A stretch of 36,632 bases of DNA from a virus, in the IMG/VR virus record IMGVR_UViG_3300019766_000005, positions 1-36,632 of that record; one strand, given 5' to 3'. Positions 1,141 to 22,780 of the stretch are shown piece after piece. Positions within the stretch are counted from its first letter, which is position 1; every line of letters starts with the position of its first letter. Both the position numbers and the translations under genes were made by a program. The notes beneath the pieces are model-generated. The model saw nothing but the letters and a program-made list of their open reading frames with translations. It was not told the DNA's origin and searched no databases.

Positions 1141-1198
1141 TATTTCGCATTGGCAAAAACTACCAACTTTATTGATATTTATTAGCAATTTCTTACAA
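1141..1198 (-). promoter_or_regulatory. Paired 17-bp operator and promoter for the leftward operon
   Basis: Read leftward, a perfect TTGGTAGTTTTTGCCAA (1166-1150) is preceded 32 bp upstream by a weaker copy, TTGTAAGAAATTGCTAA (1198-1182). The bases after the proximal copy, TGC then GAAATA, fit the extended -10 position seen at sister sites, although this hexamer is weak. The first gene of the operon starts about 50 bases further on. Confidence 0.7.
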
Positions 1199-3807: not shown

Positions 3808-3825
3808 GGGCTTAGGCCCTTTTTT
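3806..3825 (+). terminator. Rho-independent terminator
   Basis: AAGGGC-TTAG-GCCCTT forms a six-pair stem with a tetraloop, followed by a T run. It begins at the stop codon of the preceding gene and closes the first rightward operon. Confidence 0.85.
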
Positions 3826-3836
3826 ACGCCTATTTA

Positions 3837-3858
3837 GTACCGTAATCAATTACGGTAC
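3837..3858. repeat. Perfect 22-bp palindrome
   Basis: GTACCGTAAT, two central bases (CA) and ATTACGGTAC form a perfect inverted repeat just beyond the terminator. No gene or promoter is obvious at this point. It could be a protein-binding site or a cruciform. Confidence 0.8.
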
Positions 3859-3937
3859 CATAACCTAAGTCATTGAATTTAAACAAACCTTCACGATACC
3901 GATGCAATCCTAATAAACTCAGAAAACCTTCAAGCAT

Positions 3938-3967
3938 AAAAAACCCGCCTTTCTTTCGATTGGCGGG
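3938..3967 (-). terminator. Rho-independent terminator (leftward)
   Basis: Leftward, CCCGCC and GGCGGG form a 6-bp GC stem around a 12-base loop and run into six T. It would end transcription of the small leftward membrane-peptide gene. Frames running through it (3830-4012) are therefore unlikely to be real. Confidence 0.85.
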
Positions 3968-4031
3968 TAAACCTAAATTTGAGGTGATTAGTTCCAATAT
4001 GGAACCAGCCATAGCCTATGGTTTGTATAAC

Positions 4032-4136
4032 CTACTCTTTCCAACCGTTTTCCTTTGCGTATGACTTAAGCATAAAGTGAACCATTGCATAACCGAGCGG
4101 AAGTCCGATCGCTAGAATAATAAGTACCTTTTCCAT
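4032..4136 (-). CDS. Very small membrane peptide (34 aa)
   Basis: The product is MEKVLIILAIGLPLGYAMVH followed by 14 mostly polar residues: one transmembrane helix with a charged tail. The evidence is the signal set around it. It has a TATAAT extended -10 promoter about 50 bases upstream, AAGGGG eight bases before the ATG, and an intrinsic terminator downstream. It is a monocistronic leftward unit. Small single-span phage peptides of this sort can be toxins, exclusion factors or holin regulators; nothing here decides which. Confidence 0.6.
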   Translation of the reverse strand: MEKVLIILAIGLPLGYAMVHFMLKSYAKENGWKE

Positions 4137-4184
4137 ATTAACCCCTTAATTTATTTTACGGGTTGACGTTGCGCCCGTTGCTTA

Positions 4185-4213
4185 ATTATACACAAAGGGG
4201 TTTAAAATAGTAA
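4185..4213 (-). promoter_or_regulatory. Leftward promoter of the small membrane peptide
   Basis: Read leftward, TTACTA is followed after 17 bases by a perfect TATAAT preceded by TG one base upstream (GTGTATAAT). It diverges from a rightward TATAAT about 40 bp away. Confidence 0.6.
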
Positions 4214-4229
4214 ATGGTTAGCATATAAT
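4201..4229 (+). promoter_or_regulatory. Rightward promoter of the structured RNA
   Basis: TTTAAA and TATAAT (4224-4229) are separated by 17 bases, giving a start near 4236. The first stretch of RNA carries no gene, only the interlaced complementary segments described separately. Confidence 0.5.
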
Positions 4230-4235
4230 CACCTT

Positions 4236-4358
4236 AACGCTTCCGCCAAGGCGTGCTTTAATTAGAAATATAGAAAGGTTTTAAGAGTGTGGTTAAAGGT
4301 AGCGAACTTGGCGGTTTGTTATTTCTAGCCTTCAACTACACTCTTAAAGCCTTTTTTT
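4236..4358 (+). ncRNA. Structured small RNA ending in a 26-bp hairpin
   Basis: This noncoding unit of about 123 nt ends in seven T. Positions 4274-4299 and 4329-4354 can form 25 of 26 base pairs (two wobbles), far longer than a normal terminator stem. Its 29-base loop holds CTTGGCGG (4307-4314) and TATTTCTA (4320-4327). These are exact complements of CCGCCAAG (4243-4250) and TAGAAATA (4263-4270) in the 5' part. The order A-B-C-A'-B'-C' means that the three pairings cross. Alternative folds or a multi-pseudoknot are therefore possible. It may be a regulatory RNA or an attenuator; the family is unknown. Confidence 0.55.
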
Positions 4359-4746
4359 ATGCCTATCTAAAACACCCTTTCAAGAAGCCTACGGGCTATC
4401 AGTCCATAGTGAGTTGTCACTAAAAGTGCGAACGGGTAAACCAACGGCCAGCACCATAAACACGGCGAGACAATAAACAACAAGTTATCAGGAAATGCGC
4501 TTTAGTCCGGCGCGATTGGCTTTCTAAGCCTTTAAAACAGCTAATGTGGTGATATCTAAGGGGAGTAGTGACCCCGAAGTGTAGCGGGTTTCATATCTCC
4601 CGTGGTCTATGCCCTATTTAATACGACCAAAATTGAATATAGCTGATAAATAATAACTGATAATACAATTAGATTAAGTTCTACAGTGATGTTCCTAGGT
4701 ATCACCCTATGGGACTAAAATGTGAACTATTGCCTAAAGGAAAGTA
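4359..4746 (+). other. Gene-free stretch with further hairpins
   Basis: No frame of useful length with a ribosome site was seen. Short stems are visible: AGCC-TACG-GGCT with a UNCG-type loop (4386-4397), TAGTGA-GTTG-TCACTA (4407-4422), GGCTT-TCT-AAGCC (4518-4530) and GGGG/CCCC (4560-4575). The base composition is richer in GC between 4380 and 4600 than nearby. It may be a structured RNA, a replication origin or a packaging signal; none can be shown. Confidence 0.4.
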
Positions 4747-4804
4747 TTGTAAGAATTTATCAATAAAAACCATTAATTTTGGTAGTTTTTGCCACTACAT
4801 AAAG
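4747..4804 (+). promoter_or_regulatory. Paired 17-bp operator and promoter for the ParB/PAPS-reductase genes
   Basis: A distal TTGTAAGAATTTATCAA (4747-4763) lies 32 bp before a proximal TTGGTAGTTTTTGCCAC (4779-4795). CATAAA three bases after the proximal copy is the likely -10. The coding region begins 57 bases after the proximal copy, with AAGGGGT before the ATG. Confidence 0.7.
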
Positions 4805-4851
4805 AAAATTATTAATCTAAACTAATCAAACACTAACCAAAGGGGTAAGAC

Positions 4852-5994
4852 ATGAAATCAGAACAAGCTATTAACTTTAAAATGCTCGAAGCTTTATTTG
4901 ATGAAATGGAGCTAGATCAAAAGGTGGATGAAATAAACAACATAAGGGAGTTTTTGCATAGTCACAGCCCATTCAAGAATGAGCCTGTTGATTTTGTTAA
5001 ATGGGTTAAAAATGACAATGTTGTTTCTAATGATTACAACCCAAACAAGGTTGCACCAACGGAAATGAAGCTTTTGGAGCTTTCAATTGTTAATGATGGT
5101 TACACACAGCCTATTGTCTCATGGTCGAACAAGGACAAAAATGCAATCGAAGTAATTGATGGCTTTCACCGTAATCGCGTTGGCCGAGAGTCAAAGGCTG
5201 TTAATCAGCGTGTAATGGGGTTTCTCCCTGTAGTGGATATACGCAAAGAGCAAAGCGGTAAAAATGACCGTATGGCATCAACAATCAGACACAACCGTGC
5301 GCGCGGTAAACATCAGATTGATGCTATGTCTGAAATTGTAATTGAGCTGAAAAACCGTAATTGGAGAAACTCAAGGATTGCCCGTGAATTAGGTATGGAT
5401 GAAGAAGAGGTTTTACGATTATGTCAGATATCAGGCCTTGAGCATCTTTTCTCTGATAATGACTTTTCAAGATCATGGGAGGCGGCTGATTCTGCTGACT
5501 CATGGGAACCGATAACGGATAACGTAAGTGAAGAGGTGGTTGACTCTTTCCGAATCCCAAATGAAGGTAAAGGTGGGCGAATTTTCCACACCTATCATGG
5601 GTGGGAATGCCATAAAGCTGGGTTTTACGCTTCTGGCGTTAGTGGAAAAACAGAGAAGGAGTGTAAGGAGGAGTACTGCAAGTTTCTTTCTGATTGCGAT
5701 AAGTTTGCATCGACACTAGAAAAAGTCATCACAGAATGGAAAACATCTTGCGAGCACTACCTTACAAACTTTGCAATGAACCGAATAGCTTGGCTTGGAC
5801 AGGCGGCGGCTTGTTATTCTGAGGGTTTGCCGTCTAAATATTGCAGTGGGTTTAATTTGCTCACAAAAGAGCAGCAGGAAGCAGCAAATAACGTAGCTCT
5901 AATTTATTTAAATAAGTGGCTGACCTCTAATGGCCGTGAAGAAGTTGGAATGGATGAAGCTTTGAGTGCTGGCAGACAAGTGGAGATTTACTAA
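4852..5994 (+). CDS. ParB/Srx-domain protein, IbrB-like, with extra C-terminal domain
   Basis: Residues about 45-155 form a ParB/sulfiredoxin-type domain: GYTQPI (83-88), the box IDGFHRNRVG (102-111) and STIRHNRARGKH (143-154). A helix-turn-helix follows at about 167-190 (WRNSRIARELGMDEEEVLRL). The order and the next gene match the IbrB/IbrA pairs of Enterobacteria and their phages. Residues 235-380 are an addition with a segment around NRIAWLGQAAACYSEGLP, which resembles small standalone phage proteins, so this looks like a fusion. ParB-type domains bind DNA and some hydrolyse CTP or nick DNA; activity here is not shown. Its stop overlaps the next start (TAATG). Confidence 0.8.
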   Translation: MKSEQAINFKMLEALFDEMELDQKVDEINNIREFLHSHSPFKNEPVDFVKWVKNDNVVSNDYNPNKVAPTEMKLLELSIVNDGYTQPIVSWSNKDKNAIEVIDGFHRNRVGRESKAVNQRVMGFLPVVDIRKEQSGKNDRMASTIRHNRARGKHQIDAMSEIVIELKNRNWRNSRIARELGMDEEEVLRLCQISGLEHLFSDNDFSRSWEAADSADSWEPITDNVSEEVVDSFRIPNEGKGGRIFHTYHGWECHKAGFYASGVSGKTEKECKEEYCKFLSDCDKFASTLEKVITEWKTSCEHYLTNFAMNRIAWLGQAAACYSEGLPSKYCSGFNLLTKEQQEAANNVALIYLNKWLTSNGREEVGMDEALSAGRQVEIY

Positions 5995-7211
5995 TGAGTA
6001 AAAAGATTTACACAGATACAAGTGTTCTTGCGGCAGCTCAGGCAAGAATAAGCGAATCATTTGATAATTTTGAACGCCTTTATATTTCATTTTCAGGTGG
6101 TAAGGATTCGACAGTGATGACCCACCTTGTATTGAAGGAGGCTATAAAGAGGGGGCGAAAGGTTGGGCTTTTGATTATAGACTTAGAAGCTCAATATACG
6201 GCAACTATTGATCACATTCGTGAAATGGTCGAATTATATAAGGATCACATTGATCTTCACTGGTTTTGCGGCGAGCTACTTTTGCGAAATGCTGTGAGTG
6301 ATTATGAGCCAAAATGGGTGTGCTGGGATGAAGAGAAGAAAGACATTTGGGTGAGAGAGAAGCCAGAAGAGGCAGCGGACTTAACTCAATATCCATTCTA
6401 CGTGCCTAAGATGGAATTTGAAGAGCTTATGGTTATCTTTGGTAAATGGTACTCAAAAGGCCAGCCTTGTGGTGCGTTTATTGGTATCAGGTCTGATGAA
6501 AGCCTGCATCGTTACAGAGCTATTGTTTCCGATAAAACTGGAATGATGATGAATGGACGGAAATGGACAACCAAAGTGGCTAAAGGATTGTTTAATCTTT
6601 ATCCTATTTACGATTGGCGCACTGAAGATATTTGGCTTCTTCATGCTAAAAACCAAGATCTTTGTTACAACAAAATCTACGATATGATGACCAAGGCAGG
6701 GGTTAAGTTTTCAAACCAGCGACTATGCCAGCCTTTTGGTGATGATCAAAAAAAGGGTTTATGGCTTTATCATATACTTGAAGCGGACACTTGGTATAAA
6801 TTAATAAACCGTGTAAGTGGTGTGAACTCCGGTGCCTTGTACTGCCAAGATACAGGAAATATCACTGGTAGCCAGAGTATATCAAAGCCAGATAGCCATA
6901 CATGGGAGTCTTATACAAACTTCTTATTAAAATCTCTTCCTAAAAAAATGCAGGACAATTACAGGGAGCGTTTTGTTAAGTTTATATCTGGGTGGAAAAA
7001 GAGAGGCTATAACTCAATTCCTGATTTTGCCCCTCATGACCTTGAGGTTAAACAATGGGCGCCTTCTTGGCGTAGAATGTGTCGATGTATTTTGCGTAAT
7101 GACTACTACTGCAAAGGCCTTGGACAAACACAGCCCAAATCAGAGGCATACGGGAAATACAAAGCACTAAAAGAGGTGGAGAAAATAAATGAATCAATTA
7201 GCAGTATTTAA
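5994..7211 (+). CDS. PAPS-reductase-like PP-loop protein, IbrA-like (DUF3440 type)
   Basis: The PP-loop motif SGGKDS at 34-39 marks the ATP-pyrophosphatase/PAPS-reductase superfamily, which includes CysH and the phosphorothioation protein DndC. GIRSDESLHRYR (164-175), the QRLCQPFGDD segment near 245 and a Cys-rich C-terminus (MCRCILRNDYYC, about 366-377) match the larger IbrA/DUF3440 group. CysH enzymes reduce sulfate esters; DndC and tRNA-thiolation relatives adenylate or sulfurate nucleic acids. With a ParB-like partner and no sulfate-assimilation genes, nucleic-acid modification or a regulatory role is more likely than assimilation. It is co-translated with the ParB-like gene, and the next start lies 20 bases inside it. 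Confidence 0.85.
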   Translation: MSKKIYTDTSVLAAAQARISESFDNFERLYISFSGGKDSTVMTHLVLKEAIKRGRKVGLLIIDLEAQYTATIDHIREMVELYKDHIDLHWFCGELLLRNAVSDYEPKWVCWDEEKKDIWVREKPEEAADLTQYPFYVPKMEFEELMVIFGKWYSKGQPCGAFIGIRSDESLHRYRAIVSDKTGMMMNGRKWTTKVAKGLFNLYPIYDWRTEDIWLLHAKNQDLCYNKIYDMMTKAGVKFSNQRLCQPFGDDQKKGLWLYHILEADTWYKLINRVSGVNSGALYCQDTGNITGSQSISKPDSHTWESYTNFLLKSLPKKMQDNYRERFVKFISGWKKRGYNSIPDFAPHDLEVKQWAPSWRRMCRCILRNDYYCKGLGQTQPKSEAYGKYKALKEVEKINESISSI

Positions 7212-7512
7212 TGATTCAGCCTATAAGATGCCGTTAAAGGACGGCACCTTATTTGAGCTGCAAGACAATGATTTAATTATGTTTAAGCAGGTATACACGG
7301 CCATAAACGTTGATTTTGAGCTTAGAAAGATGATTGCTTGGCTTGTGTCAAATCCAAGCAAGCGCAAGACTAGGCGCGGTGTTATGAAGTTTATAAACGG
7401 GTGGTTAAGTCGAGCTAAACCTGAGCCTATTAATCAACAACAAAGCCAACGACAGTACATACAAAACACGACATTAGAGCAAAGGCTTAATGATGACAGT
7501 TGGGCTTGTTAA
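7189..7512 (+). CDS. Small protein with phage replication-type C-terminal motif (107 aa)
   Basis: The segment WLVSNPSKRKTRRGVMKFIN followed by GWLSRA (about 47-72) is the motif found near the end of many phage replisome-organiser and DnaT-like proteins (W..NP.KRKT.RG...F...WL.R). The usual larger N-terminal winged-helix region is missing; the whole protein has only 107 residues. The start overlaps the end of the PP-loop gene. It is the only recognisable replication-related gene in the phage. It may help load host replication proteins or bind DNA; this is inference. Confidence 0.65.
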   Translation: MNQLAVFNDSAYKMPLKDGTLFELQDNDLIMFKQVYTAINVDFELRKMIAWLVSNPSKRKTRRGVMKFINGWLSRAKPEPINQQQSQRQYIQNTTLEQRLNDDSWAC

Positions 7513-8564: not shown

Positions 8565-8622
8565 TTGTAAGTTTTTGCCAATAAATAACCCTGATTTTGG
8601 TAGTTTTGGCCAATGCTATACA
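8565..8622 (+). promoter_or_regulatory. Paired 17-bp operator and extended -10 promoter
   Basis: A distal TTGTAAGTTTTTGCCAA (8565-8581) lies 32 bp before a proximal TTGGTAGTTTTGGCCAA (8597-8613). TGC and TATACA follow directly, an extended -10 at 8617-8622. The next start codon is 40 bases downstream. Confidence 0.8.
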
Positions 8623-14220: not shown

Positions 14221-14278
14221 TTGGTAGTTTTTGCCAATGATTTAGCTTTAATTTGGTAGTTTTTGCCAGTGATAAAAT
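14221..14278 (+). promoter_or_regulatory. Paired 17-bp operator and extended -10 promoter
   Basis: A perfect TTGGTAGTTTTTGCCAA (14221-14237) is followed 32 bp later by a near-perfect TTGGTAGTTTTTGCCAG (14253-14269), then TGA and TAAAAT (14273-14278). This is the strongest pair in the genome. It begins one base after the preceding stop and drives the small-gene block starting at 14323. Confidence 0.85.
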
Positions 14279-14842: not shown

Positions 14843-15021
14843 TTAAGGATGATAAAGAGCAAGGCAAAGGCATATTAGCCTTTATATGTATGATTATGTT
14901 TTTAGCTATATTCTTTTTTGTGAGTAATGAGCACTTTAAAGAAGAGCTAAAGGTTCAAACTGGAACGCCTAAGTATGATGCAAAGGCGCAACTAATAGCG
15001 GCAGGGGTGATAGAGGATTAG
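14839..15021 (+). CDS. Small single-span membrane protein (60 aa)
   Basis: A basic start (MIKDDKEQGKG) precedes one hydrophobic helix at about 12-30 (ILAFICMIMFLAIFFFVS) and a soluble tail of about 30 residues ending IAAGVIED. The orientation and size resemble inner-membrane spanin or exclusion proteins. The next promoter's first operator overlaps its stop codon. Confidence 0.6.
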   Translation: MIKDDKEQGKGILAFICMIMFLAIFFFVSNEHFKEELKVQTGTPKYDAKAQLIAAGVIED

Positions 15022-15073
15022 CAAAAACTACCAAGCAAAGGTCAAACTTGGAAGATTTGGCCAATTACACTAC
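15018..15073 (+). promoter_or_regulatory. Paired 17-bp operator (inverted pair)
   Basis: TTAGCAAAAACTACCAA (15018-15034, reverse orientation) is followed 30 bp later by TTGGAAGATTTGGCCAA (15048-15064). The predicted -10 position (TTA CACTAC) is weak. A CATAAT/TACAAT stretch near 15088-15096 may serve instead for the gene at 15118. Confidence 0.6.
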
Positions 15074-22715: not shown

Positions 22716-22780
22716 ATTAAATCATTGGCAAAAACTACCAACTTTTGCTAGTGCTTGTAAGTTTTTGCTAATCATATAAA
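22716..22780. promoter_or_regulatory. Divergent promoters sharing a 17-bp operator pair
   Basis: TTGGCAAAAACTACCAA (22725-22741) read leftward is followed by TGA and TTTAAT (22721-22716), serving the inverted cassette. TTGTAAGTTTTTGCTAA (22755-22771) read rightward is followed by TCA and TATAAA (22775-22780), serving scaffold and coat. The two operators face outward, 30 bp apart. This is the clearest case of the operator-to-minus-10 rule. Confidence 0.8.

Follow-up and report, generated by a model that had tools for sequence, protein, structure and literature searches.

The locus described here lies in IMG/VR virus record IMGVR_UViG_3300019766_000005, which was analysed over its whole length of 36,632 bases (the window) and represents a marine, P22-like podovirus with matched terminase, portal, scaffold, coat and head-closure genes. 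Two of its genes, ibrB and ibrA (Table 1), are intact and overlap at TAATG. A sequence-only reading of this DNA had reported a ParB-type and a PP-loop ORF joined in this way and had named them IbrB and IbrA. Both points hold, the names being borne out by the match of the first protein to phrog_2159 and of the second to DUF3440 (E 2e-35) and phrog_2302 (E 5.5e-86). The two ORFs are a genuine IbrB-IbrA pair, translationally coupled and placed behind an operator pair.

Table 1. Features of the ibrB-ibrA locus (window coordinates).
Feature	Position	Strand	Description
Operator pair before ibrB	4747..4795	+	4747-4763 TTGTAAGAATTTATCAA, 4779-4795 TTGGTAGTTTTTGCCAC, 32 bp apart
ibrB, 380 aa	4852..5994	+	ParB/Srx-fold domain, KorB-like HTH and C-terminal IbrC; ParB-like phrog_2159, E 1.5e-66
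ParB N-terminal (NTP-binding) fold, residues 47-151	4990..5304	+	DGFHR and TIRHNRARG.H motifs
KorB-like helix-turn-helix DNA-binding domain (predicted), residues 144-198	5281..5445	+	structural match to 1r71_C
IbrC domain, helical, ~140 aa	5569..5991	+	separate gene in other phages
ibrA, 405 aa	5994..7211	+	N-type ATP-pyrophosphatase (PP-loop) domain and DUF3440
PP-loop SGGKDS, residues 34-39	6093..6110	+	motif
DUF3440 region of IbrA	6699..7148	+	PF11922, 122.5 bits (gathering cut-off 25)

The large terminase is 75% identical to that of Pseudoalteromonas phage H6/1, which is absent among the listed matches to the window IbrB or IbrA, is annotated without such a pair, and has genes for a replication protein and a DnaB-like helicase. 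The window ORFs that were scanned include no recognisable DnaB or primase, and the earlier suggestion that the pair occupies the position of replication genes is reasonable, as the next ORF (7189-7512, 107 aa), which overlaps the end of ibrA, is similar to phage replisome organisers in their C-terminal part only. Upstream of ibrB, about 1 kb (3808-4851) lacks convincing genes and contains an imperfect 52-nt inverted repeat (4248-4299 / 4329-4380, 77% complementary); this region is possibly a replication origin or a remnant. Rfam and tRNA searches gave no match.

IbrA is also matched by the PAPS_reduct domain (PF01507, E 6e-13, 49.6 bits against a gathering score of 22.5) and is placed by PHROG in the category AMG, and databases annotate it as an auxiliary sulfate-assimilation gene, that is, a true PAPS reductase. 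Despite these matches, we consider that annotation very improbable. The SGGKDS loop, reported as intact in the sequence-only reading, is indeed intact and is present as S[GA]GKD[ST] in 103/103 diverse homologues, whereas the CysH catalytic motif ECG[ILMV]H occurs in 0/103, and together these make ‘PAPS reductase’ a misnomer. Curated CysH models score far below their cut-offs (PRK02090, 25.7 vs 154 bits; TIGR02057, 26.2 vs 254.2), and the ParB partner is near-invariable. Among the window ORFs scanned with PHROGs (short ORFs being covered in part), none was identified as a sulfate-assimilation gene, in agreement with the earlier claim. The curated CysD model also scores IbrA far below its cut-off. 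The proposed kinship with DndC stands at the superfamily level, but the match is weak (TIGR03183, 18.5 bits against a cut-off of 290.4; the PADLOC DndC model, 24 bits, over fragments), so that sulfuration specifically does not follow.

The predicted structure of IbrA (pLDDT 93.4) has the fold of PAPS/APS reductases (PAPSR), FAD synthase (FADS) and CysD (Z 14-15), with TilS, NcsA and TtuA also among the matches. Cysteines C245, C373 and C92 are conserved in 90%, 92% and 76% of the 103 homologues, respectively, the first two in 100% of phage members and in about 80-84% of bacterial members; since they are not universal, there is no universal Fe-S site of the kind that many sulfurtransferases would have. 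Those members of the superfamily whose PP-loop is intact (CysD, FAD synthase, TilS, DndC) cleave ATP between the α and β phosphates, and by analogy with them IbrA most likely adenylates a substrate.

IbrB is 40-60% identical to phage IbrB proteins, and PF02195 scores 16.3 bits on it, below the gathering score of 26.3. On its predicted structure (pLDDT 87.8), KorB (8qa9_B) superposes over residues 47-195 (Z 15.1, rmsd 1.9, 137 residues) and the KorB DNA-binding domain (1r71_C) fits the HTH with an rmsd of 0.9 over 52 residues (Z 6.4), indicating that IbrB retains a KorB-like DNA-binding architecture; the GERR motif is replaced by DGFHR. SerK, SbnI and sulfiredoxin also match, but less well (Z 7-9), SerK (5x0b) reaching Z 7.8 over 84 residues. 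Neither IbrB nor YbdM is mentioned in a survey of the ParB-CTPase fold from 2025 (PMC12704722). The sequence-only reading described IbrB as ParB/Srx-type, but missed that the protein fuses two parts, one of which is a third component of the module.

This newly recognised third component, named IbrC here, is a distinct helical domain at IbrB residues ~240-380. Its assignment to a known family was rejected, as searches of Pfam, PHROG, PADLOC and PDB sequences gave no convincing match. IbrC is a separate gene in, for example, Microcystis phage Mwe-JY13, Pseudomonas phage Amjad_SA and Pseudoalteromonas phage XCL1123; of 114 phage loci that resemble the window, 111 contain it and 90 have it fused to IbrB. 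Two scans seeded with IbrC recovered all three parts in 71/71 new loci and in 76/80 loci; in the remaining four, a part mostly lay at a contig end or else was undetected. Counts from the scans rest on the best 80 of several hundred matches, the sets share a few contigs, and the related phages among them are not independent. Modules with a standalone IbrC lie on one strand in 76/76 cases, mostly in the orders B-C-A, C-A-B and A-B-C, which are rotations of one cyclic order, with five instances of A-C-B. In bacteria IbrC occurs in 1/80 loci, and in plasmids it was unmatched; a small bacterial gene between A and B was considered as an IbrC relative and rejected, because it belongs to a GNAT-like family.

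Relatives of IbrA were found in 216 phage records (Streptococcus, Flavobacterium, Mycobacterium and others), 605 plasmid records, at least several hundred viral contigs and many bacterial genomes. The E. coli genome matches DUF3440 through YbdN, encoded in an operon with the ParB-like YbdM; given this operon and the hundreds of phage and plasmid relatives, the pair itself was already known. A survey of co-occurrence, which the sequence-only reading had proposed, placed IbrB next to IbrA in 114/114 close phage loci, and the same holds for 79/80 bacterial loci. Purifying selection acts on all three parts (median dN/dS 0.125, 0.103 and 0.143), and A and B are correlated in their pairwise identities (Spearman 0.83). 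Beyond B and C, window-like loci have no further conserved neighbour, the other neighbours being phage replication and recombination genes. A small protein of ~130 aa with no family match stands beside IbrA in seven loci of the distant-phage and bacterial sets (e.g. L404:4631-5026, L128:7594-8004 and L129:7615-7995).

Judged by gene content, distant versions of the module appear to replace partners, using an SNF2-like helicase, a GNAT acetyltransferase or an ectoine-synthase-like cupin, none of which stands beside the window pair. Of 24 paired distant-phage loci that lack IbrC, 18 have an adjacent SNF2-like helicase (Pfam SNF2-rel), as against 0 of 51 that have IbrC (Fisher p 1.4e-12, uncorrected for relatedness). 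In some phages a helicase of another kind, the DEAD type, lies near IbrC-bearing modules, so the exclusion is limited to the SNF2 family. In bacterial loci, the SNF2 helicase occurs in 18-19/80, and 23/80 have a small GNAT-like protein, which is usually encoded between A and B. The cupin, a homologue of L-ectoine synthase (2.5e-20 to 5bxx), is found in 70/154 loci of two phage sets (29/77 and 41/77), either as a separate gene or as an N-terminal fusion to IbrB. Two natural fusions were seen: one ORF (L310:4470-6005) joins a cupin, a sequence looking like a class I methyltransferase, and IbrB, and another (L191:1-633) joins the C-terminus of an SNF2 helicase to a GNAT.

An ATP-pyrophosphatase combined with a DNA-binding ParB-like protein, helicase-type partners and group-tailoring enzymes makes nucleic-acid modification the best reading: the module would carry out an ATP-dependent modification, most likely of DNA, targeted by the ParB-like protein, and we put the probability of this at about 0.45. 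The modification or host-reprogramming module suggested from the letters thus remains the best explanation, strengthened by the KorB-like fold of IbrB and by the SNF2, GNAT and cupin partners. In the proposed model, IbrB (ParB/KorB-type, nucleotide-binding, with an HTH) would bind DNA as a targeting or switching clamp, and IbrA, modelled on other N-type ATP-pyrophosphatases, would spend ATP, by α-β cleavage at SGGKDS, to adenylate and activate the substrate for group transfer. IbrC, fused to IbrB in the window, would serve as an accessory subunit that an SNF2-type helicase replaces elsewhere, and the GNAT and ectoine-synthase-like cupin partners of relatives would further tailor the added group. 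We infer DNA as the substrate, the adenylation chemistry and the identity of the added group, for which sulfur is one candidate; the substrate would most likely be the phage’s own DNA, during early or lytic growth. Against modification stand the lack of an invariant Fe-S site and the literature name, ‘co-activator of prophage gene expression’. In the window, no cysteine desulfurase, dnd/ssp partner or DndD/DndE/SspC-like gene was identified. SF2 helicases are, moreover, common in phage early regions. The literature searched yielded neither a biochemical function nor a modified-nucleoside measurement for IbrA-IbrB. A bolder form of the modification reading, which we offer as a tentative possibility, is that IbrA-IbrB may be the core of an undescribed modular system of nucleic-acid hypermodification shared by phages, plasmids and bacteria; a ParB-type clamp would direct the ATP-dependent addition of a sulfur- or amino-acid-derived group and the partners (IbrC or SNF2 helicase, GNAT, ectoine-synthase-like cupin, methyltransferase) would be swappable.

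The structural matches of IbrA to TilS, NcsA and TtuA raise the alternative that IbrA acts on RNA, like TilS or NcsA on tRNA, and alters translation during infection; tRNA is also a target of GNATs and methyltransferases. We think this improbable, as the better structural matches are PAPSR, FADS and CysD, the obligate partner has a DNA-binding HTH and a ParB fold, and SNF2-type translocases act on double-stranded DNA.

Some information on physiology comes from E. coli, where the CitR ChIP-exo peak confirmed by expression lies at citR-ybdNM (PMC9068703). Deletion of citR raises ybdN (log2 5.5) and ybdM (2.5) and also induces cysA, U, W, N, D, C, J, I, H and tcyP (PMC9068703, Table 1), alongside changes in many other genes, including flagellar and citrate genes; in the parts of that paper drawn on here, the cys genes appear in Table 1 and are not discussed. 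These data are suggestive of a link between ybdNM derepression and cys-regulon induction, which may point to sulfur use. The same cys response would fit a role in small-molecule metabolism, in which IbrB would be a free amino-acid kinase like SerK or SbnI, both ParB-fold kinases in its fold list, and would make an amino-acid- or sulfur-derived metabolite together with IbrA and the GNAT or cupin, the latter being an ectoine synthase homologue. We think this improbable as well, because IbrB has a ParB/KorB HTH and matches KorB far better than SerK, the genes are placed among replication and recombination genes, and an SNF2 helicase is one of the partners.

The window also carries a set of dispersed operators. 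Two 17-bp dyad-like sites precede ibrB, and an identical pair, with the same spacing and RBS context, precedes a leftward operon at 1151-1198 (-). The stronger of the two sites recurs in the window: the 16-mer TTGGTAGTTTTTGCCA has 11 occurrences at ≤3 mismatches, against 0.74 expected, a count reached in 0/100 shuffles. The 17-bp operators, mostly paired ~29-32 bp apart, stand before at least six transcription units, which suggests a genome-wide regulon of a phage regulator; dyad-like operators of the TTGGTAGTTTTTGCCAA type lie at 1151-1198(-), 4747-4795, 8565-8612, 14221-14268, 15019-15063 and 22726-22770. The dedicated operator-pair promoter of the sequence-only reading therefore survives as an operator pair but not as a dedicated one, and the module falls within the regulon of the phage’s own regulator; its expression during lytic growth is probable. 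As KorB has dispersed sites, IbrB was considered as the binder of these operators and rejected, because the 16-mer at ≤2 mismatches is found in only 2/114 other IbrB-bearing loci; at ≤3 mismatches it is absent from the IbrB-less H6/1. Missing from nearly all other IbrB phages, the operators are not a conserved IbrB site and more likely belong to the window phage’s own regulator.

This bears on gene regulation through IbrB, the main rival of modification, in which IbrB would be a VirB/KorB-like nucleotide-switched DNA-binder activating or repressing phage and host genes and IbrA would supply or sense a nucleotide or small-molecule signal. The KorB-like N-domain and HTH would suit such a role, IbrAB reportedly raises the expression of eib prophage genes (Sandt 2002, as cited in PMC7649339), and VirB is described as a ParB-type CTP-dependent anti-silencer (PMC10770331). 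Regulation nevertheless seems unlikely: it leaves unexplained the conserved ATP-pyrophosphatase with DUF3440 in every copy and the GNAT, cupin and SNF2 partners, and the near-absence of the window’s operators elsewhere speaks against it. It could also be a consequence of modification.

The family is large and mislabelled. In hundreds of phages IbrA and IbrB are labelled ‘PAPS reductase’ and ‘partition protein’, both of which mislead, and phage ecology work counts them among sulfur-metabolism genes. If DNA modification is true, it would amount to a new anti-restriction or epigenetic chemistry in phages of very different bacteria, and the function can be tested in a standard laboratory strain, E. 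coli K-12, through its homologue ybdNM.

Compared with known systems, the window pair is a confirmed member of the IbrA/IbrB family with a variant architecture. Like IbrA/IbrB of E. coli and its prophages and YbdN/YbdM, it consists of a PP-loop and DUF3440 protein beside a co-directional ParB-type protein (~40% identity), but the order is reversed (B then A) and IbrB has a C-terminal IbrC, which is absent from 79/80 bacterial loci. KorB, Noc and ParB share with IbrB an N-terminal NTP-binding fold followed by an HTH; IbrB, in contrast, lacks GERR, has IbrC where ParB has its C-terminal dimerisation domain, and no ParA partner was found among the window ORFs scanned. The phosphorothioation systems Dnd, Ssp and BREX-4 (DndC, SspD, BrxP) share with IbrA the N-type ATP-pyrophosphatase of the PAPS-reductase superfamily, and Dnd includes a ParB-superfamily member, DndB, as the window does in IbrB, whereas IbrA has no invariant cysteine set and falls far short of the DndC model. 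In Dpd, DpdB of the ParB family accompanies DpdA in 7-deazaguanine modification of DNA (PMC6392294; PMC12839542), a parallel pairing of a ParB-superfamily protein with a nucleic-acid-modifying enzyme of which phage versions exist; the partner in the window, however, is a PP-loop enzyme and not the TGT-like DpdA. IbrB was rejected as a DpdB orthologue, the likeness being at the superfamily level only. On the best reading, the module may resemble Dpd and Dnd in its working while belonging to neither. Fusobacterium phage phiFN37 carries IbrA-IbrB-helicase plus a second ParB-like gene, which adjoins a queuine tRNA-ribosyltransferase and a queuosine-precursor transporter in a DpdB/DpdA-like set (L050:10745-13054).
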